DNA of 64,000 nucleotides from Filimonas lacunae (lineage in GTDB: Bacteria; Bacteroidota; Bacteroidia; Chitinophagales; Chitinophagaceae), in assembly GCF_002355595.1 (NCBI RefSeq), contig NZ_AP017422.1, positions 4,650,001 through 4,714,000 on the forward strand. Reading direction: 5' to 3'. Positions within the stretch are counted from its first letter, which is position 1, and each line of letters starts with the position of its first letter. The notes beneath the pieces were generated by a model. It saw only the letters and a list, made by a program, of their open reading frames with translations, searched no databases and was not told the origin of the DNA. The position numbers and the translations under genes are program-made. Positions 27,201-43,465 of this stretch are shown piece after piece.

Positions 27201-30200
27201 TGCGGCTGCGGTATTGTTCTACTATTATTTCAGGCGCCTCCACATCCATTGGAGTGAATACAGCAGATGACTTTTTGTGCCATCCGTTACGGGTTAAATA
27301 CAAAAGCGTTACCTGCAACCTGCCCGTACTATTTTGGGGCATGGTAAAGTTGAACACCTGTATGCCATTTCCTCCTTTACGCACATAATACGCATTCTGC
27401 TGCCTGGTGCCTTTGTTGCTTTTCTGCAACCAGGCAAGATGGTAAACAGCATGCAATACACTATCTGCATGCCCTGTAAGCAAATGCAACTGCTCGCCCG
27501 GCACAACAGCCGTTTTAGGTAAATGATAAAACAAGTCGTCATTGTTATTCACAAAAGTGCCGGCTTGCTGGTCATATACCTCCACCAGGCGGCTGGTGGT
27601 GCCGGCTGTATGACCTTTTTCTATGCAAACAGCTTCTATCCTGTATTTACCGGTTTGTAATAAATGCTGCGGTACCGCTAATGGTGTTTTGGAACCCGTT
27701 TCCCATACCGTATCCAGTAACAACTGCTCTTCCGGCTCCTTTACCGTTTTGCTGACAGCAGCAGTGCTGATTTGGGGAAACCACTGCTGCCATTGCACCT
27801 GCGGATATATCCATACATCTACAGGCACTACCCAGTCGTAAGCAGGCTCTTTTATGATCTGCTGCCGGTATATCCTTACCTGTATATTCCTTTGCAATGA
27901 ACCTGCAAAATCGGATGATGCCTTAATAGCAAGCTTTGGAAAGGCTGCCTTATTAAAAGGCCCGCTGAGGTTGGTAAACGAAAGCTTTACCGGACGGCTG
28001 GATAAAGTAACCTCACTGTTTTCTTCATGGCTTTCGCCGGTTACATCCACTGCTTCGGCCTCTATACTGTACCGGGCCGAAACTTCTTCCTTCTCTGTAA
28101 TAGTGAGTGTTTGTATAGCAGTATCGATAATTTTTATTACATACTCCCCCTTTTCATTGGTGGTAACATCGCCCGCAGCTACCTTATCATTCCTTCTCTG
28201 GTCGCCGTTCCACAGGTATCGTGTTACCTTATAATTTACAGGCACATTGGCTAACGCTGCGCCGGCAAACGACCTTACTTTCACCGTTACCGCAAAACTA
28301 TCTTTGAGTTGTAAAAACTGTTTCGGCTTTTCAATAGACAGGGTAAAATCGGGACGCTTGTATTCTTCTACTTTAAAATTTTCACCCTCTATTTCTATAC
28401 TTTCCTCCACATCAAACTGCCACTCGCCGGTAGCGGCTTTGGCAGGCAGCTGAAAGGAGCCTGCAAAAGAACCAAACTCATTCAACGAAACGTACACAGA
28501 GTCTGCCTGCTTACTGAAAGCATCATTCAGCAACAGCAACAACCGGGCGCTATCTGTTTTCTCCGAAAGCTCCCGAAAGATTTTTTTGTAAAGGCCGGCT
28601 CCGACGTTTTGCCTGCTAAAAACGATGACCTCACCAGTTTGCGGATTGCGTGTTGTTACCAGCCCTTTAAAATATACCTTTTGTCCGGGGCGATAAATAG
28701 CCCTGTCGGTATACATCATCAAATGCATCTGGTCTTTATGATAATCTACCGGGTTGTCAAACGCTTCTTTATCATATACTTTATCGGGGATCACAGGCGT
28801 GGCATATCTTATCGCTTTTACCAAGGTATCGCCCGGTATGCTGATATAGGCATCCCCTTCTTTTGCATAGGTAAGCGTAACACTGCCATCTTTGTTAACC
28901 GGGTAGGTTTTATCCTGGTAAGTGATGACTGCATTGGTTTGTGGCGCAGTGGTGGTACGGTTAAACACAAACCATCGCGGCGAATGATCCAGCAGGATAA
29001 GATTGGTGACCGTAATATAGGCAAACCCAATATAGTCGGAATCTACCTGCGATAAAAGAGAATCGGAATACATCACCGCGTAATGCCCCGCAGGCAATGC
29101 CGGAAACTTCAGTAACATATTATGCCACTGGTAATCGTTTTGGGCAGGCAATGAAAACAGTGTGTCCCATACCGGTTTTGCCTGTGCCCATTGCCGCTCT
29201 GCATCTTTATTCCCGGGATACAACGGGTAAGGATTGGCATAGATGTTCACTATTTTTACATACAAACGGGGGGCATTGCGAAAATTGCAGAAAACAGGAA
29301 TATCCTCCCCGGTTTTATACGTATCGTGCATATCCAGCGAAAATCCATTGACAGCAGCCTGTTGCTGCTGCTGCAACAGCTGCTGCCTGATATAAGGAAA
29401 ACTGTCTATTAGCAACTGGTGCTGCTGGTACAACTGCTTTGCTATTACCAGGTTCCAACGGTATGCTGTATCAAATTGTCCATAATAAGCATATCCGCCC
29501 CAGCCTACCCGGCTGCTGGCTTTGTAAAGGGGATTATACTGTGCCGCCGAGGCATACAGCATAGCAGTTTGCTGATACACGCCATGCACTTTTACAAGGG
29601 GGTTGGATGATTGCACCAGCGTTTGCAGGTATTGTTTATATTGTACCCTGGTGGCAGAATCGCTATATGCGTGCTGACTTACATATTTCCTGAGCAACGA
29701 CTCTATATAATAATACACCTCTTTATCTTCTTTATGCCATAGCATCCATTCTTTATAGGTATGCAGTATCGCTTTTGCATTGGCCTCCTGAGCCAGCTCA
29801 CTATCCGGTAAAGCCACAAAAGCATCCGGCGAAAGGGTAAGCCAGTTGGGCTGTAGCACCTGAAAATTGGGATACCCGGCCTGTTGCTGCCCTTCCAGTA
29901 CCGCCACATACATAATATCAGCCGTAGAAGGCGGAAACAATAGTATCAGCGGGGTACGTATCAACCATACCAACGACGCAGCGGTGACAGCACCAAAACG
30001 CTTACTCAGCACCAGGGCGCTATCCAGGTGCCACTGTGCAAGACTGTCTAACTGATTTTGCTCCAGCATTCCATACCGGATACCATCGCCCGAACCCCTA
30101 AACAGTATTTTATTGTGGCGGTGAAAAAACTGTTGCTTAAAAGTATAGATGCGTTGGGCCTTTAGCACGTGCATAATCATTTTAAGCATGGCCGGCGACC

Positions 30201-30498
30201 CGGCATTTTGCAGAACGCTATCAGCAAAACCCATATTCTTAAAAAACAGCGTGTCTTCGGTAGTAAGGTCTTTTACCTGCATGTGGTAATACATACACCT
30301 GCCCACCACCGCCCAGTTGCCCAGCCGGGCGGCTTGCTGCTGGTGTAATTGTAAATCACTGTCCAGCACCTGTAAATGATTTTTGTGGCGGATATCTTCC
30401 TCTGCCCGTTCCCAGGTAAAAGGCTTTTTCTCCTGTAAAAAAGCAGTGAATGGCAAGCATAAGCCAATCAGTAGTAAAAGGGTTGCCCAAACTTTCAT
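24271..30498 (-). CDS. Giant alpha-2-macroglobulin family protein with TonB-plug-like insert
   Basis: About 2075 residues from the ATG at 30498, chosen because MKVWATLLLLIGLCLPF is a signal peptide; the longer frame adds 22 unlikely residues. A helical N-terminal region (about 30-400) is followed by macroglobulin domains, with the MG2 start MYTDRAIYRPGQKVYFKG near 595. Residues about 1199-1308 resemble a TonB-receptor plug (ALQGRIPGLAIEQG, VVAVGYGATKKSNLTGSV, AIYGSRAANGVVVIST). The A2M domain resumes at FRISFTMPESVTEWNWKMMV. The thioester motif CAEQ (C1552 in PYGCAEQTF) is intact, so it can probably trap proteases covalently. No lipobox is seen. It is divergent from the polyphosphate operon and not obviously cotranscribed with the XrtN genes. 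Confidence 0.88.
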   Translation of the reverse strand: MKVWATLLLLIGLCLPFTAFLQEKKPFTWERAEEDIRHKNHLQVLDSDLQLHQQQAARLGNWAVVGRCMYYHMQVKDLTTEDTLFFKNMGFADSVLQNAGSPAMLKMIMHVLKAQRIYTFKQQFFHRHNKILFRGSGDGIRYGMLEQNQLDSLAQWHLDSALVLSKRFGAVTAASLVWLIRTPLILLFPPSTADIMYVAVLEGQQQAGYPNFQVLQPNWLTLSPDAFVALPDSELAQEANAKAILHTYKEWMLWHKEDKEVYYYIESLLRKYVSQHAYSDSATRVQYKQYLQTLVQSSNPLVKVHGVYQQTAMLYASAAQYNPLYKASSRVGWGGYAYYGQFDTAYRWNLVIAKQLYQQHQLLIDSFPYIRQQLLQQQQQAAVNGFSLDMHDTYKTGEDIPVFCNFRNAPRLYVKIVNIYANPYPLYPGNKDAERQWAQAKPVWDTLFSLPAQNDYQWHNMLLKFPALPAGHYAVMYSDSLLSQVDSDYIGFAYITVTNLILLDHSPRWFVFNRTTTAPQTNAVITYQDKTYPVNKDGSVTLTYAKEGDAYISIPGDTLVKAIRYATPVIPDKVYDKEAFDNPVDYHKDQMHLMMYTDRAIYRPGQKVYFKGLVTTRNPQTGEVIVFSRQNVGAGLYKKIFRELSEKTDSARLLLLLNDAFSKQADSVYVSLNEFGSFAGSFQLPAKAATGEWQFDVEESIEIEGENFKVEEYKRPDFTLSIEKPKQFLQLKDSFAVTVKVRSFAGAALANVPVNYKVTRYLWNGDQRRNDKVAAGDVTTNEKGEYVIKIIDTAIQTLTITEKEEVSARYSIEAEAVDVTGESHEENSEVTLSSRPVKLSFTNLSGPFNKAAFPKLAIKASSDFAGSLQRNIQVRIYRQQIIKEPAYDWVVPVDVWIYPQVQWQQWFPQISTAAVSKTVKEPEEQLLLDTVWETGSKTPLAVPQHLLQTGKYRIEAVCIEKGHTAGTTSRLVEVYDQQAGTFVNNNDDLFYHLPKTAVVPGEQLHLLTGHADSVLHAVYHLAWLQKSNKGTRQQNAYYVRKGGNGIQVFNFTMPQNSTGRLQVTLLYLTRNGWHKKSSAVFTPMDVEAPEIIVEQYRSRMAPGSKQTFTLSVVSRQLHTQAELLTTMYDAALDQLAKHNWLSPYEDRIQYARSDWNYDVRRVINGALFMHKAITVRPDSTGKPLRWMQPVSASDEMEAGDLSNALQGRIPGLAIEQGALDEVVAVGYGATKKSNLTGSVSVVQVRGLNSFAGAYVPLIIVDGLIYEKGLDGLDPGIIADAVVLKGADATAIYGSRAANGVVVISTQGKVQFPAAPEQAPPAVIRKNFSETAFFFPQVHAGKDGLFRISFTMPESVTEWNWKMMVTTLGNKIAMAEKKVVTQLPLMIQPAMPRFLYQGDKTFFKSRITNLDTLVATGKVTCVIEDMVTGEEVTAQVLQGKALQPFQVAAQSNGSSAFAIQVPEGWLHPLKVRIAAVTPAFTDGEEHVIPILAKKVLATTQVPFVLKQANDTTIVLPALPADATPYGVGLSITPKPQAALLHALPYLAQYPYGCAEQTFNKMLAHAVALRLVQKDTALQVIAGTDKAALADMPDAPDEALMPWLRLSNANRLHQQQLVKLLDTVKAHEKISEYIHVLQGMLCSNGGISWFKGGESSEYISCYLLAGLGQLKANGVWPAYDVVAEGSFWQIVASLVKYCDEVMYQGGDYWFNWQSYLYARSWWLQQYPVPAAIQHRLESSLATFVKEPHHYGAGEQAHILSAMLRYSRGNAKLRAEALDVLSSLRERAIADPVYGVRWKELADADDLTNCSEEWMVKLAEAFEASGEYATTVDGIIQWLLQAKYDHQWSTTKATGDAVSLLVKQRQGVVAAPVQLQAQAANGYALQVTDNVVSGQLYAFDSSQGKALPATVTIRKTTGEAAGVWQYYYFTAQPPVSTAEGALSITRSLQRFHKTTGTWQTITNDTVLHIADKIRVTLTIQTSRQLKYAFVEDYRAACMEPSAVESGYQYGNGFGYYLSVRDASMQFFAEKIPAGLSALSYECVINRDGNFHTAPATLQCMYQPQMKAYSNNLQYKVVE

Positions 30499-30717
30499 TG
30501 GAATGGTTTTAGAAATGATGCAAGCGAACCTGTAATTACACATATTTTCTCCTGATTTTTCCATTCGGGACTTTTATTGGTATAATTATTCCTTTTTGCA
30601 TGATAAAAATGCCCAAATTCAGCAAGGGACATCGCTGGCATCTGAAAGATAAATACCTTAGCATGACAAGGTAAAAAGGCAGTTCCGGTCTTTGTTATCA
30701 ATTAGACAAAAGAATAT

Positions 30718-31923
30718 ATGAATTATACAACGCTTCTGGAAGAAGTGAAGCAATACGCCCTTCATTTCTTTAAATCGCATGAGGAAAACCCGTTTCTCTA
30801 CCACAACCAGGACCATACCGAGCAGGTGGTGAAAGCAGCCACCCAAATGGCCAGTTATTACCAGTTGAACGATCGCGACGTTTTTATAGTGCTTACCGCA
30901 GCCTGGTTTCACGACATGGGCTATTATACCGGTCCGGCAGAAGGGCATGAAAAGAATGCCGCCGACCTGGCAGCCGTGTTTTTACGTCAGCATGGCGTAG
31001 ACGAAGCCGATATTACCGAAGTACAGCAATGTATTATGGCCACCTGTATGAACGGCCAAACACCTGCCGGCCTGAAAGCCCAGATTGTAACCGATGCCGA
31101 TTTGTTCCACTGGGGTACCGACGATTTTGCCGAGCGCAATAAACTGATGCGGAAAGAAGCGGAAGCCCGTTTAAATAAAAAGATCTCCAAAGAAGACTGG
31201 CAGCGTGGTACCATTAAACTGCTGAGCAGCCATCATTTTAAAACCACCTACGGCCAGCAGATACTGGAGCCTAAAAAGCAAAAGAACCTGGAAAAGCTGC
31301 GGATGAAGTTTGAAGAGGAGGCCACACCTATTAATATCAGCACCAAACCGGTATCGTTACCCGAAGCGGTTACCAGTAAAAAAACGAAAGACCGCCCCGA
31401 AAAAGGCGTGGAAACCATGTTTCGCATCAGCTCGGGCAACAATCAGCGTTTGAGTGATATGGCAGATAACAAAGCCCATATCATGATCTCTACCACTTCC
31501 ATTATCCTGTCGGTGATATTGAGTGTGCTGTTGCGCAAGCTGGAAGATAACCCGCACCTGATTATCCCCACCATGCTGTTGCTGGTAGTGTGCGTTACCA
31601 CCATGGTATTTGCTATACTGGCTACCCGTCCTAACTTATCGGACGGCACTTTTACCCAGCAGGACATTGATAATAAAAAAGTGAACCTGTTGTTTTTTGG
31701 CAACTTTTACCGCATGAGCTATGACGAATATGCCAACGGTATGAACGCGATGATGAACGACCGCGACTTTTTATACGGCAGCCTTACCAAAGACGTGTAT
31801 TCGCAGGGGGTGGTGTTGAGCCGTAAATACCGTTTACTGCGCAAAGCCTACGATATTTTCATGTTTGGTATTGTTTTATCGGTAGTAGCCTTTGCCTTTG
31901 CCACCATCATCTTTGGACATTAA
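30718..31923 (+). CDS. HD-domain protein fused to Pycsar-effector-like membrane domain
   Basis: A 401-residue protein in two parts. Residues about 1-165 form an HD phosphohydrolase domain: H33 (YHNQDHTEQV), the HD pair H65/D66 (AAWFHDMGYY) and a distal Asp in IVTDADLFHWG, so the metal ligands look complete. After a basic linker, residues about 245-401 carry SDMADNKAHIMISTTSIILS and three hydrophobic helices, the pattern of the DUF5706 'Pycsar system effector family'. In Pycsar defence, such membrane proteins are triggered by cyclic nucleotides. Here the domain sits with an HD hydrolase, 15 bp upstream of ppk1. A role in nucleotide signalling is likely; a defence role is only a possibility. 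Confidence 0.85.
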   Translation: MNYTTLLEEVKQYALHFFKSHEENPFLYHNQDHTEQVVKAATQMASYYQLNDRDVFIVLTAAWFHDMGYYTGPAEGHEKNAADLAAVFLRQHGVDEADITEVQQCIMATCMNGQTPAGLKAQIVTDADLFHWGTDDFAERNKLMRKEAEARLNKKISKEDWQRGTIKLLSSHHFKTTYGQQILEPKKQKNLEKLRMKFEEEATPINISTKPVSLPEAVTSKKTKDRPEKGVETMFRISSGNNQRLSDMADNKAHIMISTTSIILSVILSVLLRKLEDNPHLIIPTMLLLVVCVTTMVFAILATRPNLSDGTFTQQDIDNKKVNLLFFGNFYRMSYDEYANGMNAMMNDRDFLYGSLTKDVYSQGVVLSRKYRLLRKAYDIFMFGIVLSVVAFAFATIIFGH

Positions 31924-31938
31924 TATTGATACAACAGC

Positions 31939-33963
31939 ATGGAAGAGTATTTCTTTAACCGTGATATCAGCTGGCTATATTTTAACGAAAGGGTTTTGAA
32001 CGAAGCGGCTTCAGAAACAGTGCCCCTGCTGGAAAGGGTTAAATTCCTTTCTATCTATTCCAGCAACCTGGATGAATTTTACCGGGTGCGTATGCCTGCC
32101 TTGCGGGCATTGGAAAAAGTGACCAAAGAAAAAAACACACTGCCTTATGAAGAAGCTGCCGCCCTTATTAACCGGCAGCAACAGCAATATGGCGATATAT
32201 TGAACAATAGCATTATTCCCGCTTTACAGCAATACGGCTATACTTTTATTAATAATGACGCCCTGCCCGAAAGCGTTGCACAAAACAGTACCCAGTGGTT
32301 TTATAACCAGGTGGCCGGCTTTTTACAGCCGGTGCTGTTGCAAATGGGCAGGAACGACTTTTTTCCGGAGAACAACCAGTTATACCAGTTAGTGGTGGTG
32401 CAGTATGAAAATGCTGCTGAACAGCTATACCTGGTAAACATACCCGTGGCCAACGTAGGACGTTTTTACAAAGCTTCTAATGGCGAAGGTGTGTATATCA
32501 TTTTTGTGGAAGACATTATACGTCATCACCTGCCCCATGTGTTTCCCGGAGCTACTATACATGGCGCCTGGAACATTAAGATTACCCGTGATGCGGAGTT
32601 AGACCTGCAGGATGAGTATGGTGAAGACCTGGCAGATAAAATGGAGAAGCAACTGGTAAAACGCGACTATGGTTTTGCCACCCGCTTTTTATACCCGCCA
32701 GACATGCCCCTGCGCCATCTACAATACCTGGTGCAATTGTTTAACCTGAACAAAGCTTCTATTGTAGAAGGCGGCAGGCATCATAACCTGAGAGACCTGG
32801 ACGCCCTGCCGGTGAGCGATAAACAGCTTACCTACCCATCGTGGGCACCCGCCCCTGATGGTATGCACTTGCAGAACACTACTTTGCTGGAAGCCATTAG
32901 CGAGCGCGACCGGGTGATACATGCCCCCTATCAGAGCTACGACAGCATTCTGCGCTTTTTTAACGAGGCGGCCATGAACCCTGATGTGGAGGAAGTATAC
33001 ACTACCTTATACCGGGTGGCCAGCAACTCCCGCATAGCCCAGGCGCTGATCAGCGCTGCCCGCAACGGTAAAAAGGTATCGGTGCTGGTGGAACTGAAAG
33101 CCCGTTTTGACGAAGCCAATAACATACGCTGGGCTAAAAAGATGAAGGCGGCAGGCGTTAAAATACTCTACAGCAGCAATGCCTTAAAAGTACACGCCAA
33201 AATAGCGCTGGTAAAAAGAAAGCATGCTACCCTGCCCTACCTGGGCCTGCTGGCAACCGGCAACCTCAACGAAACAACCGCCCGTTTTTATACCGATCAT
33301 ATTTTACTCACCGCCCACCAGGCGATGCTGGCGGAGATGAAGCAGCTTTTTACCTTTTTAACCAAACGCAAAAAGCCGGAGCAGGAAGATGCGATTAACT
33401 TTACCCATTTGCTGGTTGCGCAGTTTAACCTGCAACGACAGTTTTTAGCACTGATTGACCGGGAAATAGCCAACGCGCAGCAGCAATTGCCGGCAGCTAT
33501 TACTATTAAGATGAACAACCTGGAAGAAGCCGTGCTCATTAAAAAATTATACGAGGCTTCGAACGCAGGGGTGAAAATCACTTTAATAGTACGCAGCATT
33601 TGCCGCCTGGTGCCGGGCATTCCTGGTATGAGCGAAAACATTACTATTAAAAGAATTGTAGACCGCTACCTGGAGCATGGACGCGTGTTTATTTTTCATA
33701 ACAACGGAACGCCTGAAGTGTATATGGGTTCGGCTGACTGGATGAACCGCAATATATACCGCCGCATAGAAGTATGCTTCCCGGTATATGATGCCGCCAT
33801 TCAGCAGCAGCTGCAGCAGATCATCGCCCTGCAAACTTCCGACAATGTGCAGGCCGTATGGATCAACAGTCAGTTACAGAACGTACCTGTTACCGCAGAA
33901 GAGCCGCTGATACGTTCGCAGGAAGCGATCTATCAATTATTACTTAACACTACTACCTTATGA
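31939..33963 (+). CDS. ppk1: Polyphosphate kinase 1
   Basis: A 674-residue enzyme of typical length. The N-terminus FNRDISWLYFNERVLNEA and SSNLDEFYRVRMPALRA are diagnostic. The two catalytic-domain histidines are H419 (LKVHAKIALV, the autophosphorylated residue by homology) and H580 (YLEHGRVFIFHN). It reversibly polymerises the terminal phosphate of ATP into polyphosphate. It starts 15 bp after the HD/Pycsar-like gene and overlaps the next gene by 4 bp (ATGA), so translation is probably coupled. Confidence 0.97.
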   Translation: MEEYFFNRDISWLYFNERVLNEAASETVPLLERVKFLSIYSSNLDEFYRVRMPALRALEKVTKEKNTLPYEEAAALINRQQQQYGDILNNSIIPALQQYGYTFINNDALPESVAQNSTQWFYNQVAGFLQPVLLQMGRNDFFPENNQLYQLVVVQYENAAEQLYLVNIPVANVGRFYKASNGEGVYIIFVEDIIRHHLPHVFPGATIHGAWNIKITRDAELDLQDEYGEDLADKMEKQLVKRDYGFATRFLYPPDMPLRHLQYLVQLFNLNKASIVEGGRHHNLRDLDALPVSDKQLTYPSWAPAPDGMHLQNTTLLEAISERDRVIHAPYQSYDSILRFFNEAAMNPDVEEVYTTLYRVASNSRIAQALISAARNGKKVSVLVELKARFDEANNIRWAKKMKAAGVKILYSSNALKVHAKIALVKRKHATLPYLGLLATGNLNETTARFYTDHILLTAHQAMLAEMKQLFTFLTKRKKPEQEDAINFTHLLVAQFNLQRQFLALIDREIANAQQQLPAAITIKMNNLEEAVLIKKLYEASNAGVKITLIVRSICRLVPGIPGMSENITIKRIVDRYLEHGRVFIFHNNGTPEVYMGSADWMNRNIYRRIEVCFPVYDAAIQQQLQQIIALQTSDNVQAVWINSQLQNVPVTAEEPLIRSQEAIYQLLLNTTTL

Positions 33964-34826
33964 TACGTCGTACCTTCATTACCATCGCTTTTTCCGGTAT
34001 TTGTGCCTTTCCTATACTGGCAGGCTGCAACATGACCAAAAAGCAGGATCCTACCCCCGCGGCCTATAACCTGAACAAACCGGAAAAATTCAGCATGCCT
34101 GAAAGCCTGCTGGAGATATCGGGCATTTCGTTTTACAAAGGCCGTCCCGACAGCATTTATTCTATACAGGACGAAAACGGCAAGCTGTTTCGTATGGCCT
34201 GGCAACAGGGCAAGCAAGCACATGCTCATTTTGGCAAAACCGGCGATTATGAAGATGTAAGCATTGTAAAAGACCAGGTGATTATTTTAAAAAGCAATGG
34301 CAGTTTGTTTCAGTTTCCTTTTACCAGCGCCACTTATCCCGAAATTGATCACGCCAAAGAATGGAAGCACCTGCTACCCAAAGGCGAATATGAAAGTATT
34401 TATGGCGACGACAGCACCGGGCTGGTATATGTACTGTGCAAAAACTGCGACCAGGATAATAACAAGAAAGTAGCATCCGGCTTCATCTTTCAGCTACAGG
34501 GCGACTCGCTGTTTGCCCAGGGCAACTTTAGCATAGATGTAGGCCAGATCAAGGATATAGCAGGCAAAGTGAAAAGAGGCTTTCGCCCTTCGGCACTGGC
34601 TAAAAACCCACTCACAGGAGAATGGTTTATTATTTCGGCCGTCAACAAAATGATAGTGATAGCCGATAGCCGGTTTACGGTAAAAGAAGTGTATCCTTTA
34701 AACGGCAACACGTTTAACCAGCCGGAAGGCATTGCTTTTGACAAGAATGGCGACCTGTATATTTCTAATGAAGGCTCGGACCTGAGCAGTGGCAATATTT
34801 TGAAATTTAAAAGACTAACCCGATAA
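33960..34826 (+). CDS. SdiA-regulated-domain lipoprotein, beta-propeller type
   Basis: This 288-residue lipoprotein has its lipobox at C23 (ILAGC). Repeating segments such as ISGISFYKGRPDSIYSIQDE and FNQPEGIAFDKNGDLYISNE are NHL/propeller-like and fit the SdiA-regulated family. No catalytic residues are evident. Its start overlaps the ppk1 stop, and it ends 11 bp before the phosphoesterase fusion gene, placing it inside the operon. It may bind a ligand or partner at the envelope; function unknown. Confidence 0.8.
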   Translation: MIRRTFITIAFSGICAFPILAGCNMTKKQDPTPAAYNLNKPEKFSMPESLLEISGISFYKGRPDSIYSIQDENGKLFRMAWQQGKQAHAHFGKTGDYEDVSIVKDQVIILKSNGSLFQFPFTSATYPEIDHAKEWKHLLPKGEYESIYGDDSTGLVYVLCKNCDQDNNKKVASGFIFQLQGDSLFAQGNFSIDVGQIKDIAGKVKRGFRPSALAKNPLTGEWFIISAVNKMIVIADSRFTVKEVYPLNGNTFNQPEGIAFDKNGDLYISNEGSDLSSGNILKFKRLTR

Positions 34827-34837
34827 TCAACCATCCG

Positions 34838-37800
34838 ATGAACAAACTGCTACCCCTACTACTGTTTGCCTTTTTAGGCAACCGTGTGCATGCACAGGAC
34901 AGCGTGCAATACCGCGTTATTTTTATAGGTGACGCCGGTGAAATGAATGCAGAACAGCAAAAATCGCTGCAACACGCCGCCAATCATATTATTACGGGCA
35001 AAACCACGGTATTATACCTGGGTGATAACGTTTACCCGCATGGCATGGGCCTGCCTGGCAGCAAAGAAGAAACTACCTCGCAACAAATATTACAATCGCA
35101 ATACCTGCCCATGCGCGCCAAAGGGGCGCCGGTATATTTTGTACCCGGCAACCACGACTGGGACAAGATGGGACCGAAAGGGCTGGCTAAAATAAAACGC
35201 CAGTGGCAATACCTGGATGAACGCGGCGATTCGTTGCTGCAACTGATACCTGCCAATGGTTGTCCTGATCCGGTAGAAATTCCTTTAACCGATAGCCTCA
35301 CTATTATCGCTTATGATAGTGAGTGGTGGTTGTTTCCTTTTAGTAAAAACAACCCGGATGGAGAATGCGCCTGTAAAACCAAAAAGGATGTGCTGATACG
35401 ACTGGCTGAATTGCAATATAAAAACAGGAACAAGATTGTACTGCTGGCATCGCACCACCCTTTTCAAAGCTATGGTGTGCATGGTGGTGTATTTACCTTC
35501 AAAGATCACCTGTTTCCCTTAACAGCCGTTAACCACAACCTGTATATCCCTTTACCGGTGATAGGCTCGTTATATCCTTTCCTGCGTTCTACCTTCACTA
35601 ACCCCGAAGATTTGAAGCATCCTTTGTATAAGGATATGAAAAAGCGCATAGATGCCGTGTTTGCTACCAACCCTAACATGATACATGTTGCCGGTCACGA
35701 ACATGGTTTGCAGTTTATCAAAGACAAAAAGCAGGTACAGGTAGTAAGCGGTGCAGGCGCTAAACACACCAATGCCAAAAAAGGAAAGTACTCGCAGTTT
35801 GCAGAAGCCACACAAGGCTATGTAACGGCCGATTTGTTGCTGAACGGCCACATGCGTTTTACCTATTATGTATACGAGAGCGATACCATACGCAATGCTT
35901 TTACCTACGAGCAGGCCTATACCCCTGTGATAGAAAAAAGTGATACCAGCCTGATAGCACAATATAAAGACAGTGTTACCGTAGCCGTGCACCCCTCGTA
36001 CGATAAGCCCGGTGGCTTTCACCGCTGGATATTTGGCGAGAACTACCGCAAGGAATGGGCAATGCCTGTAACGTTGCCGGTGATTCGCCTGTCGGAAATA
36101 CATGGCGGCCTGACGCCCCTGCAATTGGGTGGCGGCATGCAAAGTAAATCGCTGCGCCTGCAGGATAAAGAGGGTAAGGAATGGGTGATACGCAGTGTGG
36201 AGAAAACGCCGGACGCCCTGTTGCCTGCCGGTTTGCAGGATGCGTTTGCCCGCGACTGGCTGGATGATGTTACCAGCGCCCAGCATCCGTTTTCGGCCCT
36301 GAGTGTACCGCCTATTGCCAATGCCGTAAAGGTGCCGCATGCCCATCCTATTATAGGTGTGATGGCCCCTGATAAAAAGCTGGGACTGTATGAGAACATT
36401 TTTGCCAACATGGTAGTGTTGCTGGAAGAGCGGGAACCCGGTGGCGAATCGGACAACTCCGAGAAAATGAAAAAGGCCCTGTGGAAGGATAACGAAAACG
36501 ATATTAAAGCCAAAGAAATGCTGCGCGCGCGTATGCTGGATGCGTTTTTAGGCGACTGGGACCGTCACGAAGACCAATGGCGCTGGCGTAACGAAGGCAA
36601 AGGCAAGGACAAACTGTATGTAGCCGTGCCACGCGACCGCGACCAGGTGTTTCACGTTACCCAGGGTGTGCTGCCCTGGCTGGCTTCGCAGGATTATGTA
36701 TTGCCTACCCTGCGCAACTTCGACAACAAAATGGGGCATATTCAGTGGCTGCTGTTTAAAACCCGTTTTGTAAATGCCTATCCTTCTTTCCAGTTTACCC
36801 GCGCCCAGTGGCAGGAAGAAGCGAAGAAATTCCAGGAAAGTTTGACCGATTCGGTACTGGAAGCGGCATTGCGCCAGCTGCCCGCTCCTGCTTACCAGTT
36901 AAGACATCAGCAATTGATGAGCACGATGCAGGAACGCCGCAGCAGCCTGCCGGCCGCCATGGACAAATACTATTGCTTTACGCAGAAGATAGCGGACATA
37001 CAAACCAGTAATAAAAACGAACTGGTACAAATTACCGATGGTGCCAATGGAGGTTTACAGGTGCGTATATCCCGTTTAAATAAGAATAAAGAAGTGAAGG
37101 AAGAGCTGATGAACAAAACCTACGAAGCTGGTCTTACCAAAGAGGTTCGTTTATTCATTGGCAATGGTGAGGATAGTGTGATCATTGACAACAAAACCAC
37201 CGATATTAAACTGCGCATTATAGGCGGGCACGATGCCAAATCGTATAACGTAGTAGCTGCCAACCGTAAAGTGTTGTTGTACGACCGGGCTAATCAAAGT
37301 AGTTTTAACGGCGATTTCTCCCGTTTCAGAAAACGTATATCTGACGATAGCCTGAACACTGCTTTTACACCTGTAAACCTGTATAACAGCTGGATGCCCC
37401 TGGCACTGGTGGGTTTAAACAGGGATGATGGTTTTATACTGGGCGCTGGCTTCCGTCATATTAAGCAGGAAGGTTTTCGCCGTTACCCTTACTCGGTAAT
37501 GCAGCAGGTGCTGGCAGGCCATTCCTTTAGCACCGATGCGTTTTATGTAAAATACCGTGGCGAATGGATTGGCAGCCCCGGCAGACCAGACTTTATATTA
37601 AGCGCCACTGCCAAAGCTCCTAACAACACCATTAACTTTTATGGCCGTGGCAACGAATCGGAGTTTAATAAAACCGGCGATTTTGTTCGTTTTTACCGCA
37701 CCCGTTTCAGCATTTACGATGTAAATCCGGAACTGCGCTGGAGAAGCCAGGGCAACAAATCGAGCGTTAGCATTGGTCCTGCGCTGGAATATTACGAATT

Positions 37801-38449
37801 TGACCAGGACGATAATGCCGGCCGCTATATTACCAGTGGTGGCAAAATTGGTTCGTACGATAGTTCCTCTATTACGCAAAGCAAGTTACATGCGGGCGCA
37901 ACGGTTACCTATATATTTGACAACCGCAATAACAAAGTAATACCCCAATGGGGCAGTTATGTGAACATTAAAGTAAAAGCTTACCAGGGAGTGAGCAGCT
38001 ACGCCAAAAGTTTTGCCCAGATTATTCCGGAAGTGGCGCTGTACAAAAATTTGAACGCCAAAGCGTCTATTGTACTGGCTGAACGCCTGGGAGGTACTAT
38101 AACCGTAGGAAAATCAGCCTTTTATCAATCGGCTTTCCTGGGCGGACACGAAAACCTGCTGGGTTACCGCCAATATCGTTTTTCGGGTCAGCACAGTTTG
38201 TATAACAACCTGGAAATGCGCATTAAACTGGCCGATGTGGCCAACTATATTTTACCCGGACAATTGGGAATCACCGGGTTCTGGGATATTGGCCGCGTTT
38301 GGGAGCAGAGTGAAGATTCAGGTAAATGGCACAATGGTGTAGGCGGCGGTATTTATTTTGCCCCCGTTTCGATGGTTGCATTTAGCTTTGTGGTAGGAAA
38401 TTCATCAGAAGGATGGTATCCCTATTTTACGATGGGTTTCCGTTTCTGA
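34838..38449 (+). CDS. Metallophosphoesterase fused to kinase-like domain and outer-membrane beta-barrel
   Basis: A 1203-residue exported protein (signal peptide ending VHAQ, residue 20). Residues about 24-360 are a calcineurin-like phosphoesterase with all metal motifs: GDAGE (31), GDN (62), GNHDW (about 103), SHHP and GHEH. Residues about 380-720 form a module also present in the gene at 40886. It contains GGGMQSKSLRLQDKEGKEWV, then K456, EEREP, GDWDRHEDQW (572-581) and PRDRDQVF (about 598-605), which resembles the catalytic and metal loops of HipA/FAM20/PI4K-type kinases. The last ~360 residues are a BamA/TamA-like 16-strand barrel (HENLLGYRQYRFSG). The parts suggest a surface or periplasmic phospho-enzyme tethered to the outer membrane. 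The phosphatase and barrel calls are firm; the kinase idea is inference. Confidence 0.85.
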   Translation: MNKLLPLLLFAFLGNRVHAQDSVQYRVIFIGDAGEMNAEQQKSLQHAANHIITGKTTVLYLGDNVYPHGMGLPGSKEETTSQQILQSQYLPMRAKGAPVYFVPGNHDWDKMGPKGLAKIKRQWQYLDERGDSLLQLIPANGCPDPVEIPLTDSLTIIAYDSEWWLFPFSKNNPDGECACKTKKDVLIRLAELQYKNRNKIVLLASHHPFQSYGVHGGVFTFKDHLFPLTAVNHNLYIPLPVIGSLYPFLRSTFTNPEDLKHPLYKDMKKRIDAVFATNPNMIHVAGHEHGLQFIKDKKQVQVVSGAGAKHTNAKKGKYSQFAEATQGYVTADLLLNGHMRFTYYVYESDTIRNAFTYEQAYTPVIEKSDTSLIAQYKDSVTVAVHPSYDKPGGFHRWIFGENYRKEWAMPVTLPVIRLSEIHGGLTPLQLGGGMQSKSLRLQDKEGKEWVIRSVEKTPDALLPAGLQDAFARDWLDDVTSAQHPFSALSVPPIANAVKVPHAHPIIGVMAPDKKLGLYENIFANMVVLLEEREPGGESDNSEKMKKALWKDNENDIKAKEMLRARMLDAFLGDWDRHEDQWRWRNEGKGKDKLYVAVPRDRDQVFHVTQGVLPWLASQDYVLPTLRNFDNKMGHIQWLLFKTRFVNAYPSFQFTRAQWQEEAKKFQESLTDSVLEAALRQLPAPAYQLRHQQLMSTMQERRSSLPAAMDKYYCFTQKIADIQTSNKNELVQITDGANGGLQVRISRLNKNKEVKEELMNKTYEAGLTKEVRLFIGNGEDSVIIDNKTTDIKLRIIGGHDAKSYNVVAANRKVLLYDRANQSSFNGDFSRFRKRISDDSLNTAFTPVNLYNSWMPLALVGLNRDDGFILGAGFRHIKQEGFRRYPYSVMQQVLAGHSFSTDAFYVKYRGEWIGSPGRPDFILSATAKAPNNTINFYGRGNESEFNKTGDFVRFYRTRFSIYDVNPELRWRSQGNKSSVSIGPALEYYEFDQDDNAGRYITSGGKIGSYDSSSITQSKLHAGATVTYIFDNRNNKVIPQWGSYVNIKVKAYQGVSSYAKSFAQIIPEVALYKNLNAKASIVLAERLGGTITVGKSAFYQSAFLGGHENLLGYRQYRFSGQHSLYNNLEMRIKLADVANYILPGQLGITGFWDIGRVWEQSEDSGKWHNGVGGGIYFAPVSMVAFSFVVGNSSEGWYPYFTMGFRF

Positions 38450-38486
38450 TAAAGTTTGAAGAAAGGCAGTTAAAAGAGAGGAGAAC

Positions 38487-40865
38487 ATGAAGACAACGTT
38501 GTTAAACCTGGCAGAAGGAACCAGCAGCCCGTATAAGCTGGAAGCCGTATTGTCCTTTAAACCCTTTATCCAGTTTCTAGAAAATAAATTACAGGAAGAA
38601 CATACCGCCAAGGCCACCCATTACCGGGTGGCTCTTGACGCTTTTGCCAAATATCCCGAATTACAGGAACCTGTTGCGCCTGAAAAGGCTGCACAATATA
38701 AAGAGGTGCTGGAGCAGATTTATGCGATAGCGACTCCCCCGTTAATATCGGAACAGAACTTTTTATGGGCAGTGTGTACGCCCGTATCGCCGGTGGTGTT
38801 TTATGCCACTCATGCTTTTTACGACATGCTTACGGTAGACAGGCCGGATAATACCAATATCTGCAACCTGAAACCCAACATGATTCAACAGAGCGAGGAA
38901 GAATGGCGCGTGAATAAGCTCATGCGCATTTACGCCCTGATATTGCATAAACTCTATAATATATCGTTTGGCCATACGGACATGATTCATAAAACCATAG
39001 ATGAATGTACCGGGCTGGAACGTTATTACCGCCTTGACTTTGACGACCGCTTTTTACAGATACATACCAAAGGGCCTTTACCGGAGTTAACCATGGAATC
39101 GTTGCAGGATCAACTGCCTGCCACCAACCATCCGCTTACGGTGCTGGAAAAGAAACTGCCGCTGGATATGTTCCATTTTGAAGGGCTGTCTATCATTTCT
39201 TTAACCGATGTTACAGCCGAACACGCCATTACCACGCTGCGGGATATTGTAGTAGAGCACGCGCAAACCGCCAGCAACGAAAACTTTGCACGCATAGAGC
39301 TGGCTTTAAAAAGCATGATAGGTAGCCCCGATATAGGGTTTGGCCTGTTGCCGCTGTTAAAGATCAACAATAAATATGTGTTTAAAAACGGGGTAGGCTT
39401 GCAAAGTACCCTGATAGAACTGGCCCGCCAGCATGGCTTTGGAGAAGATATGTTCCAGGGCTTTGTGCAAAGTTATGTGGCATCGCCGCGTATTGTGTTT
39501 TTGCGTTCTATCACCCCGCTACACCAGGATTTGTCGCCGGCATTGAAAATACTGGCCGATCATAATATATTTTCTTTTGTCATTGTTCCGCTTTACTACC
39601 AGGGCAGCCTGGCAGGTGTGCTGGAAGTGTTTTCGGATAAAGAGAACATGATTAACGAGCGCATGCTGAGTCAGCTGAACGCCGCATCGTTAACGCTATC
39701 GCAGTTATTGCAACAATCGAGGGAAGATTTAAAGAACGATATTACCCGTATTATCAACGATAAGTTTACGCCCTTACAGCCCGCTGTGCAATGGAAGTTT
39801 AACGAAGCTGCCTGGAACTACCTGCAACAGGAGCAGGAAAACACCACACCGCAAATACCCCGTATTGCCTTTGAAGATGTGTACCCGCTATACGGCGCGG
39901 TAGATATACGCAACAGCACGGAAGAACGGAACCAGGCACTGAAAACCGATCTGGAAACCCACCTGCGTTTGCTGGACAGCACATTGCAGGCCATACAGCA
40001 GTGCGATACCTGCCTTATCAGCAGCGAAACGAAGAAGAAGTGTGAAGAGTGGCAGCATAAGGTGAAAGTAAGTACCAACCTTTCGCCCTACCATGCTATG
40101 AAGCTGGAAGACTACCTGCACCGCGAAATACCTGCTTTTCTGAAAAGTCTTAAAGCCAGTCATTCAGGTCCGGCTTCTGTTATTGATGCCTATATGCAGG
40201 CGATCAATCCTAAAGATGGCATTACGTTTCAGCAACGCCGCGAGCTGGAAACCTCTATGCAGCTGATTAACGCCACAGTAGGTAAAACACTGGATGTGTT
40301 TAACGAAAAACTGCAACTGAAATACCCCTGTTATTTTGAGAAGTTCAGAACAGACGGGGTGGAATATGATATTTACGCGGGCCAGAGCATTGACCCCACC
40401 CGCCATTTTGATGCGTTGAGCCTGGTAAAAATAAGGCACCGCCAACTGAAAGTGATGGCATTGCTGGCACAACAAACCAAAGCTTTGTTGCCTTTAATGC
40501 CCAAAGCACTGCAAACCACGCAGCTGATTTTTGTGCACGGTACACATATAGATATTGCTTTTCGTGCCGATGAAAAAAGGTTTGATGTAGAAGGCAGCTA
40601 TAACATACGCTACCAGGTAGTGAAGAAACGCATTGACAAAGCTTATATCAAAGACACTGCGCAAAGGCTTACACAGCCCGGCACCATTGCTATTGTATAC
40701 TCAGGCAAGAACGAAATAGCCGATTACCTGCAAAGCATTCAGATATTGCAGGAAGAAGGCACACTGGGGCCTGATATAGAATGGCTGGAGCTGGAAGAGC
40801 TGCAAGGATTAACGGGGATGAAAGCTATTCGTGTGCAGGTGATGGGTGGCGCTACATTAGCATAA
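38487..40865 (+). CDS. GAF protein with class III nucleotide-cyclase-like C-terminal half
   Basis: A 792-residue soluble protein without a signal peptide. Residues about 250-420 look like a GAF ligand-sensing domain (NIFSFVIVPLYYQGSLAGVL). The C-terminal half shows class III cyclase landmarks: D473 in YGAVDIRNST, K619 and D623 in KFRTDG (the K-x3-D spacing of adenylyl cyclases), D700 in FDVEG (compare YDVWG in known enzymes) and R715 in VKKRIDKA. Between D473 and D623 is an extra helical insert of about 100 residues, and the usual Asn four residues before the Arg is missing, so activity is uncertain. It lies 37 bp after the phosphoesterase fusion and 20 bp before its paralogue. I infer a cytosolic sensor or signal enzyme. 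Confidence 0.7.
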   Translation: MKTTLLNLAEGTSSPYKLEAVLSFKPFIQFLENKLQEEHTAKATHYRVALDAFAKYPELQEPVAPEKAAQYKEVLEQIYAIATPPLISEQNFLWAVCTPVSPVVFYATHAFYDMLTVDRPDNTNICNLKPNMIQQSEEEWRVNKLMRIYALILHKLYNISFGHTDMIHKTIDECTGLERYYRLDFDDRFLQIHTKGPLPELTMESLQDQLPATNHPLTVLEKKLPLDMFHFEGLSIISLTDVTAEHAITTLRDIVVEHAQTASNENFARIELALKSMIGSPDIGFGLLPLLKINNKYVFKNGVGLQSTLIELARQHGFGEDMFQGFVQSYVASPRIVFLRSITPLHQDLSPALKILADHNIFSFVIVPLYYQGSLAGVLEVFSDKENMINERMLSQLNAASLTLSQLLQQSREDLKNDITRIINDKFTPLQPAVQWKFNEAAWNYLQQEQENTTPQIPRIAFEDVYPLYGAVDIRNSTEERNQALKTDLETHLRLLDSTLQAIQQCDTCLISSETKKKCEEWQHKVKVSTNLSPYHAMKLEDYLHREIPAFLKSLKASHSGPASVIDAYMQAINPKDGITFQQRRELETSMQLINATVGKTLDVFNEKLQLKYPCYFEKFRTDGVEYDIYAGQSIDPTRHFDALSLVKIRHRQLKVMALLAQQTKALLPLMPKALQTTQLIFVHGTHIDIAFRADEKRFDVEGSYNIRYQVVKKRIDKAYIKDTAQRLTQPGTIAIVYSGKNEIADYLQSIQILQEEGTLGPDIEWLELEELQGLTGMKAIRVQVMGGATLA

Positions 40866-40885
40866 TTGTTGTCTGAATAAAAACC

Positions 40886-43465
40886 ATGACATTGTACCGA
40901 TCCATTCTGTGCATGGCACTGCTCCTGCTTGCAACCTGCTATGCCGGTGCCCAAAGCACTGCCCCTGTTGCAGACAGCATTACTGTAGCCATCTCTCCTG
41001 CTTACGACAGTGTTAGCGGTGTGCACCGCTTCTGGTTTGGTGAAAGCTACCGCAAGCTATGGGCTGCTCCCGTAAAGCTGAAGGTGTTTTACCTGGCTAA
41101 AGAAAAAGGCGGCCTTACCATAGAACAAAGAGGAGGAGGTTTGCAAACCCGGTCGCTACGGCTGAAAGACGCTACTGGCAAGGAATGGGTATTGCGTACC
41201 CTACAAAAATATCCCGAGCGTGGCCTGCCGCCTAACCTGCGCGCCACCATTGCCAAAGACATTTTGCAGGACCAGGTGGTGACTGCCCATCCTTTTTCTT
41301 CGTTAACCGTACCGCCTATGGCTGCAGCCCTGGGCATACCACACGCCAACCCGCAGATAGTATATGTGCCGGATGATACCGCCCTGGGCGCTTACCGGCA
41401 AGACTTTGCCAATGCCGTGTTTTTATTTGAAGAAAGAGAACCCATAGATGCAGACCGCACCGATAACACCGATAAAACACAGCGCAAGCTGGAAGAAGAC
41501 AATGACACCCGCGTAAACCAGCAGATTGTATTACGTGCCCGCCTGCTGGATATGTTGCTGGGCGATTGGGACCGCCACGAAGACCAATGGCGCTGGGAAA
41601 GGGTGAAAGAGAAAAAGAAGGTGACCTACACGCCTGTACCACGCGACCGCGACCAGGTGTATTATAACACTACCGGTGTATTTCCCTGGATACTCTCCCA
41701 CCAATGGCTGAAATCGAAATTCCAGGGCTTTCACAACAACATACGTGACATTAACGGCTTTAACTTCAACGCCCGTTATTTTGACCGCTACTTTCTCAAT
41801 GGCCTGAACGAGCAGGACTGGCAGGAACAGATCTCCTATCTGCAAACTACCCTTACGGATAGTTTGCTTCGTGCAGCGGTTCGCCTGATGCCAGATACTA
41901 TTTACGCCTTATCAGGAGAGCATATCATCAACACACTGATTGCACGCCGTAACAACCTGCGTAAAGAAGCCATGGCCTACTATGGCTTTATTACTAAAAA
42001 CGCAGATGTACCCGCTTCGGATAAGCAGGAGCTGTTTGATATTACCAAACAAGCCGGCGGACAAGTGGCGGTGAATATTTATAAAGTAAAGAAAGATGGT
42101 ACCGTAGAGGACCTTATTTACAGTAAGTACTTTCACCCGGATGTAACCCGTGAAATAAGGTTATATGGTTTGGGCGGACACGATATTTTCTCTGTGAAAG
42201 GGGATGCTACTTCCTCTATTAAAATACGTATGATAGGCGGTGACGACCGCGACAGTTTTTATATAGCACCAGAGGTACGCAACACAGGCAAGCTATTTAT
42301 TTACGATCGCTCTGATGAACCTAATGCACTGCCTTCCCGCTCGCAGGCGCGCATTCGCACTTCTACCGACAGTGCCGTGAACAGCTATAACCGCCGGAGC
42401 TTTTTATTTGACAGGTTAGGTCCTTTGTTTAGCGCTCAATATAACCCCGACCAGGGGTTGATGGCCCGCGTGAATATGATGCTGGAAAAACAAGGCTTTC
42501 GTAAAACGCCTTATGCACAGCAGCATCAACTGATAGTAAGCTATATCACCGGCCGGCAATCGTTTATATTACAATACCTGGCCGATTTTAAAAAAGCCAT
42601 TGGTAATAATGATTTACGGGTAAACATCTTTTCACGCGGCCCCAATAACCTCAGCAACTTTTTTGGATTGGGCAACGAAAGTGTGTTTGTGAATGAGGGG
42701 GATAAAACCATCAATTACTATCGCAACCGTTATGATGTGATCAATGGAGATGTTCGATTGTATCATCCTGCGGGCAGGCACCTCACTTTTAATGCAGGTG
42801 TTGCGAGTCAGTTTTACACCAGCCGTGAGCGCAATAACACCCATCGCTTTTTAAATGCTTATAATGCCGTTTATCCCGCAGAGAAAGTGTTTGACGACCG
42901 TTTGTTTGCCGGCCTGGTAGCCGGTGCCGAAGCGGACACCCGCAACAGTAATTTTATGCCGGTAAGGGGCATACACTGGAATGCAGAAATCACCGGAATG
43001 ACACAAACCAATGGCGACCATCTGAGCTATGGTAAAGTAACTACCGATTTCAGCTTTTATGTTCCGTTACTGGGCGATTCTACCCTGGTGATGGCTAACC
43101 GGGTGGCTGGCGGCACCACCTTTGGCAACCCTGCTTATTTTCAAATGATGCAACTGGGCGGCGCACAAATGCTGCGCGGCTTTCATACCAACCGCTTTAC
43201 CGGCAAAACAGCCGTATACCATAACCTGGAGCTGCGCTTAAAACTGTTCAACTTTGCTTCTTACCTGCTGCCCGGCACCGCGGGCCTGGTGGCTTTTAAC
43301 GATATAGGCCGCGTATGGTTGCCCGGCGAATCATCTCACCAATGGCATGATGGCTATGGTGGTGGATTATATATTATACCTGCCGATTTGTTTATTATCC
43401 AGGCAGCTGTGGGCTTTTCCAACGAGGGGGCATTGCCGTATATTACTGCAGGATTCAGGTTTTAA
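40886..43465 (+). CDS. Kinase-like/BamA-type outer-membrane protein, paralogue without phosphatase
   Basis: This 859-residue exported protein (signal peptide ending YAGAQ) is a shorter relative of the gene at 34838. Residues about 35-350 repeat its central module: GGGLQTRSLRLKDATGKEWV, K108, FEEREP, GDWDRHEDQW (226-235) and PRDRDQVY (252-259). The C-terminal ~350 residues are a BamA/TamA-like barrel (QLGGAQMLRGFHTNRFTGKT, ending ITAGFRF). The phosphoesterase domain is absent. It is the last gene of the operon and is followed by a strong terminator. The conserved motif set in both paralogues argues for a real active site or ligand site; what it acts on is unknown. Confidence 0.82.
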   Translation: MTLYRSILCMALLLLATCYAGAQSTAPVADSITVAISPAYDSVSGVHRFWFGESYRKLWAAPVKLKVFYLAKEKGGLTIEQRGGGLQTRSLRLKDATGKEWVLRTLQKYPERGLPPNLRATIAKDILQDQVVTAHPFSSLTVPPMAAALGIPHANPQIVYVPDDTALGAYRQDFANAVFLFEEREPIDADRTDNTDKTQRKLEEDNDTRVNQQIVLRARLLDMLLGDWDRHEDQWRWERVKEKKKVTYTPVPRDRDQVYYNTTGVFPWILSHQWLKSKFQGFHNNIRDINGFNFNARYFDRYFLNGLNEQDWQEQISYLQTTLTDSLLRAAVRLMPDTIYALSGEHIINTLIARRNNLRKEAMAYYGFITKNADVPASDKQELFDITKQAGGQVAVNIYKVKKDGTVEDLIYSKYFHPDVTREIRLYGLGGHDIFSVKGDATSSIKIRMIGGDDRDSFYIAPEVRNTGKLFIYDRSDEPNALPSRSQARIRTSTDSAVNSYNRRSFLFDRLGPLFSAQYNPDQGLMARVNMMLEKQGFRKTPYAQQHQLIVSYITGRQSFILQYLADFKKAIGNNDLRVNIFSRGPNNLSNFFGLGNESVFVNEGDKTINYYRNRYDVINGDVRLYHPAGRHLTFNAGVASQFYTSRERNNTHRFLNAYNAVYPAEKVFDDRLFAGLVAGAEADTRNSNFMPVRGIHWNAEITGMTQTNGDHLSYGKVTTDFSFYVPLLGDSTLVMANRVAGGTTFGNPAYFQMMQLGGAQMLRGFHTNRFTGKTAVYHNLELRLKLFNFASYLLPGTAGLVAFNDIGRVWLPGESSHQWHDGYGGGLYIIPADLFIIQAAVGFSNEGALPYITAGFRF

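Follow-up and report, generated by a model that had tools for sequence, protein, structure and literature searches.

A predicted kinase-like module between a phosphoesterase and an Omp85-type barrel in Filimonas lacunae and other Bacteroidota

A stretch of 64,000 nucleotides from the genome of Filimonas lacunae (contig NZ_AP017422.1, positions 4,650,001 to 4,714,000; referred to here as the window), which is assembled as a single contig of 7.8 Mb, carries an open reading frame at exactly 34838-38449 (+) whose product of 1203 amino acids (aa) combines a metallophosphoesterase, a middle module and an Omp85-type outer-membrane barrel. On present evidence from profile comparison and structure prediction, we lean towards the reading in which the module would be an exported kinase similar to HipA, CotH and FAM20, held by the barrel and accompanied by a phosphatase on the same chain. 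The kinase-like fold, which rests on a model, is very probable, while activity as a phosphotransferase is predicted with more reserve. Among proteins with the protein-kinase-like fold, the module most likely represents a new family on the atypical branch that holds HipA, CotH and FAM20. By their own Pfam models, it lies outside all three of these.

Architecture and predicted fold

The chain begins with a hydrophobic N-terminus, in which hydropathy points to an export signal at about residues 1-19 (34838-34894, as all features of this gene on the + strand) that ends ...VHA/QD, the cleavage site being judged by eye. It is followed by the metallophosphoesterase domain (residues 26-217, 34913-35488; Pfam PF00149, E 4e-8), which has its closest relatives in the PDB among the tartrate-resistant or purple acid phosphatases (E 1e-4) and holds a complete set of metal-ligand motifs: GDAGE at residue 31, GDNVY at 62, GNHDW at 104, SHHPF at 205 and, outside the Pfam match, GHEHG at 286. 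The Omp85-type barrel (PF01103, residues 962-1166, E 5e-11) extends to the C-terminal phenylalanine (37721-38446), with the sequence ending in GFRF. A paralogue of 859 aa at 40886-43465 (+), to which the original prediction did not refer, was found by Pfam and the module search and has a hydrophobic N-terminus, the module and an Omp85 barrel (E 2e-14) without a phosphoesterase. Both proteins match the NCBIfam model NF047779 under its 200-bit cut-off (74 bits for the 34838-38449 protein and 117 for the paralogue), and the Pfam scan gave no POTRA match in either. No Pfam domain was found between the PF00149 and Omp85 matches at E ≤1, and the middle module (about residues 380-735, 35975-37042), delimited by its family, predicted fold and profile comparisons, has no match in Pfam or NCBIfam. 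The nearest named relative found is that of Filimonas zeae, with 86% identity over residues 360-740. The one-polypeptide architecture that had been proposed from the letters alone is thus confirmed by the reading frame, the Pfam matches and the positions of every quoted motif: GGGMQSKSLRL (431-441), EWVIRSVEK (448-456), EEREP (530-534), GDWDRHEDQW (572-581) and PRDRDQVF (598-605).

The original prediction had taken the module for an atypical kinase or nucleotide-binding fold, and structure prediction followed by a fold search favours a kinase-like fold at moderate confidence, with CtkA and FAM20 as the top matches. The AlphaFold2 model was template-free and built from an alignment of 8 sequences; the best version has a mean pLDDT (predicted local distance difference test) of 65.9 and a pTM (predicted template modelling score) of 0.70. 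A single-sequence prediction of residues 355-771 was unusable (pLDDT 35). The order of elements in the module model fits a kinase because strands at 426-432, 437-442 and 448-453, a helix at 464-476, strands at 505-509 and 526-531 and a helix at 554-571 run in that order before the GDWDRH loop. GGGMQSKSLRL (36128-36160) is placed between the first two predicted strands as a candidate glycine-rich loop. EWVIRSVEK (36179-36205), which had been described as strand-like and followed by K456, is borne out in part: the predicted strand 448-453 holds R452, and K456 comes after it and not inside, model and conservation making both candidate nucleotide-binding basic residues. As a prediction, the module therefore shows the two lobes of the protein-kinase-like superfamily and, in the right order, its glycine loop, basic residue, catalytic-loop aspartate and metal-binding aspartate.

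In the Foldseek search against solved structures, four chains of the HipA-like kinase CtkA came first (E 3e-5 to 7e-5, probability 1.00) and were alone among the 569 matches in reaching E ≤0.001, followed by C. elegans-type FAM20 entries at E 1e-3 and by PI4K-II, RIO2 and HipA at E 0.01-0.04. All of the best 50 of the 569 matches are protein-kinase-like by title or known affiliation, 1zyl, 7cz2 and 8jsu among them by the latter. A search of a viral fold library listed 50 rows, 25 of which are named kinase or kinase-like and the others unnamed or different proteins, and neither of its two matches with E <0.001 is a named kinase.

Profile comparison of the module points to CotH and HipA. With the module as the query, hhalign scored 41.8 for CotH and 36.6 for HipA (the latter over 101 columns), both above a null in which 16 neighbour-gene families were each compared in forward and in reversed order (32 scores, mean 16.6, maximum 23.8); with CotH as the query the module scored 59.1. 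These alignments bring GDWDRH into register with GNWDNY of CotH and N-x-D-D-H of HipA, and PRDRDQ with IPYDYDN of CotH. GDWDRHEDQW (36551-36580) is accordingly the candidate catalytic loop, with D573, D575, H577 and Q580, and PRDRDQVF (36629-36652), aligned to IPYDYDNT of CotH, the candidate metal-binding segment, with D600 and D602. The profile signal sits in what is predicted to be the C-lobe. APH and the canonical Ser/Thr kinases were rejected as closest kin with scores of 15.2 and 15.5, in the range of the null (APH against Pkinase scores 70.7). A search of 247 genomes with the Pfam Fam20C model (threshold E 0.001) yielded two matches, both inside the module (E 5e-4; 20.4 and 20.3 bits against a cut-off of 26.8), and none in the genome of the window.

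Several results weigh against a kinase. The pLDDT is 56-57 over the catalytic loop and below 50 at residues 602-647 (233-278 of the model), the remaining four models average 50-56, and the TM-scores to CtkA are 0.51-0.54 (normalised to the CtkA length) at a root-mean-square deviation of 8.3-9.4 Å. The N-lobe alone has no profile match, scoring 17.3 against HipA (14.3 reversed) and 13.0 against CotH; a GGxxxK-like likeness to HipA, seen by eye only, failed this test and was dropped. The null for CotH as a query is unclean, with neighbour-gene families scoring 177, 39 and 33 at CotH columns 718-835; these outliers were put aside, as the stretch matching the module is CotH 351-528, and reliance was placed on the null for the module query. 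A Pfam scan of 94 modules at E 0.1 returned scattered weak matches to 29 families, with CotH as the best (two of the modules, down to E 5.6e-4) and Dna2 and DUF1598 close behind (E 1.3e-3 and 1.4e-3); as unrelated families come this near, the scan alone proves little. Pfam CotH has no match in the 34838-38449 protein, and HipA_C none in it at E 1 nor among the 25 of the 29 families that were listed for the 94 modules. Searches of the PDB by sequence gave CtkA at E 0.08 with 35 modules and 0.4 with 94, ranked third and fourth below matches that look like chance; GNFDRH of CtkA was aligned with GDWDRH, below significance. Further points on this side concern the active site and the phosphate donor and are taken up below.

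Conservation and distribution of the module

The family, the conservation of its residues, its export-type N-termini and its gene set were computed directly. A profile search found the module in 112 of 296 Bacteroidota genomes (E 1e-6; a few matches are partial). Within the order, it was seen in 29 of the 149 genomes searched (E 0.001; the genome of the window included). The 133 matches collected reduce to 96 non-redundant proteins: 42 with phosphoesterase, module and barrel, 39 with module and barrel, 14 with the module alone and one cut at a contig end. These counts are not natural proportions, because some loci were picked for divergence; the 60 neighbourhood regions were chosen by hand, the third batch mostly for low-scoring and stand-alone members. 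At one locus (L153, 9051-13097), module, phosphoesterase and barrel are encoded by three adjacent genes on the same strand (545, 403 and 395 aa), each with a hydrophobic N-terminal stretch on its product, which may be either a natural split of the fused protein or its pre-fusion form. By a crude hydropathy rule, such a stretch is present in 70 of the 72 module proteins of the neighbourhood set; several starts are lipoprotein-like, and four stand-alone modules (L156, L158, L180, L181) look membrane-anchored. Export of the module is therefore probable, and neither barrel nor phosphoesterase is needed for it to exist. Loci L147 and L149 have two and three stand-alone modules in tandem, with serine in place of D575 in two of the five. 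Relatives of the module were also seen on 5 of 72,556 plasmid records, from Persicobacter, Hymenobacter (3) and Parabacteroides (19-35% identity), and none of 37 pattern matches on viral contigs was confirmed as one.

Among the 96 modules, 95 of which have letters at most of the columns concerned, conservation exceeds chance: K456 is kept in 89/95, E530 in 92/95, D573 in 91/95, D575 in 81/95, D600 in 86/95 and D602 in 84/95. The phosphoesterase fusions have K456, D573, H577, D600 and D602 in 42/42, E530 in 41/42 and D575 in 38/42, and the stand-alone modules have K456, E530, D573, D600 and D602 in 14/14 and D575 and H577 in 12/14 each. Of the catalytic residues put forward in the original prediction, K456 and D600 hold in every fusion; D575 is less constant than D573, which makes D573 the safer catalytic candidate.

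The same columns bear on an unlikely alternative, in which the module would be a pseudokinase-type sensor of nucleotides or other ligands that has the kinase-like fold without its chemistry and controls the phosphoesterase or the barrel. Twelve of the 39 module-barrel proteins miss at least one of K456, D573, D600 and D602 (27/39 keep all four) and yet retain their module and barrel matches, although low-scoring members had been fetched for this set on purpose. D575 is replaced by serine or glycine in 4 of the 42 fusions, three of them from one family. The phosphoesterase is degenerate in 10 of the 42 fusions, having lost the histidine of GNH and other ligands, so that a cycle of kinase and phosphatase cannot be universal. 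All four fusions without D575 belong to these ten, the other six of which keep D575 (4/10 against 0/32, p 0.002, with the truncated L034 left out and kinship ignored). The fusions at L136, L137 and L148 and their kin are degenerate at both the phosphoesterase motifs and D575. In addition, an exported module would not be expected to have adenosine triphosphate (ATP) at hand in the periplasm. Against a pseudokinase stands the invariance of K456, D573, D600 and D602 in all 42 fusions and all 14 stand-alone modules; a mere scaffold is likewise disfavoured, because several invariant acidic residues would be hard to explain.

Gene neighbourhood and the question of the donor

The fusion gene is the fourth of six genes that are close-packed on the + strand at 30718-43465, neighbours being 11-37 bases apart or overlapping by 4 bases, a run that had gone unmentioned in the original prediction. 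The first (30718-31923) encodes an HD phosphohydrolase with a PycTM membrane domain, a domain otherwise named for Pycsar effectors. It is followed by polyphosphate kinase 1 (PPK1; 31939-33963, by Pfam and NCBIfam) and by an SdiA-regulated/NHL beta-propeller-like protein (33960-34826), the gene of which overlaps that of PPK1 by 4 bases. Between the fusion and the module-barrel paralogue lies the gene for a GAF-like protein of 792 aa (38487-40865), with a weak GAF match under the Pfam cut-off. On the other strand, 24271-30564 (-) encodes a 2097-aa alpha-2-macroglobulin-like protein with a match to the TonB-receptor plug at residues 1218-1321 (E 2e-7) just before the alpha-2-macroglobulin match, adjoined by a VIT-domain gene at 21594-24119.

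The neighbourhood survey covered 65 fetched loci of 12-20 kb each, window excluded. Near the phosphoesterase fusions (26 loci), HD-PycTM was found 18 times, the propeller 15, the GAF-like protein 13 and PPK1 7 times; near module-barrel genes (30 loci) the counts are 6, 9, 2 and 4, and near stand-alone modules (9 loci) 0, 0, 0 and 1. At 34 of the 65 loci none of the four genes lies within the fetched region. At the level of genomes, 20 module-bearing ones, hand-picked from the 112 and mostly near kin of the window's, were compared with 20 listed without a match. Full-length HD-PycTM, judged by aligned ranges as single-domain matches are commoner, occurs in 20/20 against 1/20, the GAF-like protein in 20/20 against 0/20 and the propeller in 13/20 against 1/20. 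In the 296 unpicked genomes, taken as the same draw in the module and GAF-like surveys (same number, and same identifiers where listed), the GAF-like protein is encoded by 59 of the 112 module-bearing genomes and by 1 of the 184 others, where it is a weak fragment (G268), kinship being ignored. Among the module-bearing genomes it is present in 45/47 within the class or nearer and in 14/65 outside the class. Across the phylum, the GAF-like protein and the module thus tend to be present together, also where their genes are not adjacent.

PPK1 bears on an explanation of slightly lower probability than a pseudokinase, in which the kinase-like fold would serve a different chemistry, substrate or donor, such as AMP transfer, glutamylation, phosphorylation of lipids or glycans, or the use of polyphosphate. 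SelO and SidJ are members of the kinase fold that perform other transfers. The PPK1 gene is part of the operon, it lies within the fetched region at 12 of the 65 loci, and at least two copies are present in 8/20 module-bearing genomes against 0/20 others. As for polyphosphate as the donor, the gene is missing from the other 53 fetched neighbourhoods and PPK1 as such is found in 39 of the 40 genomes (20/20 against 19/20). As PPK1 is cytoplasmic, it cannot directly feed an enzyme at the outer membrane.

Relation to described families and biological meaning

It is improbable that the module is not kinase-like at all, its predicted fold being a product of the thin alignment, and that it is a periplasmic adaptor which serves the barrel in place of POTRA domains: the 8-sequence model with its moderate pLDDT, the poor single-sequence model and the PDB search below significance would allow it, while CotH and HipA are recovered by profile comparisons made separately, the Fam20C model matches two members, stand-alone modules exist without a barrel, and the missing POTRA match in both proteins of the window is also counted against it.

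Returning to the exported kinase that we favour, the nearest described systems each share a part of it. CtkA is the best fold match, and with HipA, to which the C-lobe profile is matched, it has in common with the module the G-N/D-x-D-R/D-H catalytic loop; unlike these kinases the module is exported and fused to a barrel, has no HipA_C match in Pfam and an N-lobe unmatched in sequence. CotH, the spore-coat kinase, is the best profile match, with the catalytic loop and the I-P-x-D-x-D motif in register over about 160 columns, and differs in that its Pfam model at E ≤0.1 does not reach the 34838-38449 protein; CotH is not known to occur with a barrel or a phosphoesterase. The D228Q variant of CotH is reported to be catalytically inactive, and the FAM20 proteins are kinases of the secretory pathway (both PMC7821199). 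The likeness to FAM20 lies in the Foldseek matches 4kqa/4kqb and 5yh0 and in the two Fam20C matches; the score of these is under the Pfam cut-off, and FAM20 is eukaryotic and stands in a different domain setting.

The original prediction knew of no described family of this kind, which is wrong in part. The combination of an N-terminal PF00149 domain and an Omp85 barrel, with no POTRA match, was published in 2014 as the 'Metallo' subfamily of Omp85 (Heinz 2014, PMC4104836); the section that defines it names no kinase-like module. The 34838-38449 protein belongs to this subfamily by its definition, whereas the paralogue at 40886-43465 lacks PF00149 and does not, and it and other members without PF00149 still keep the module. 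The paper terms PF00149 a metalloprotease domain, contrary to which PF00149 is the calcineurin-like phosphoesterase. PlpD-type patatin-Omp85 proteins likewise place an enzyme domain before the barrel; the passages of PMC4104836 on them give a lipolytic domain and one POTRA and mention no kinase-like module. A search of the literature by titles and abstract openings, with most subscription papers out of reach, brought up no recognisable description of a kinase module in Omp85 proteins.

Catalysis, the substrate, the periplasmic side and the phosphate donor are what we infer from these comparisons. The Omp85-type barrel would hold the exported module at the outer membrane, where it would transfer phosphate to an envelope or secreted substrate by means of the glycine-rich loop, R452/K456, the GDWDRHxxQW loop and the PRDRDQ metal site. 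The purple-acid-phosphatase-like metallophosphoesterase fused ahead of it, which may be the 'own phosphatase' of the module, would take the phosphate off again, so that phosphorylation at the outer membrane could be switched locally and reversibly. More tentatively, this could be part of a dedicated outer-membrane phosphorylation system of the Bacteroidota, in which the barrel-tethered kinase and its phosphatase act with HD-PycTM, the GAF-like protein (which has no export signal), the propeller and sometimes an extra PPK, possibly from a donor other than ATP, on envelope or secreted targets.

The module is present in over a third of the sampled Bacteroidota genomes, yet the copy in the window matches no Pfam or NCBIfam model, and the phosphoesterase-barrel fusion has been read as a protease (PMC4104836). 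The co-occurring gene set, with the GAF-like protein, supplies immediate targets for knock-out. If the module is a kinase, reversible phosphorylation would take place at the outer membrane, outside the cell interior, and since ATP is not expected there, this reading raises the testable question of which phosphate donor it would use.

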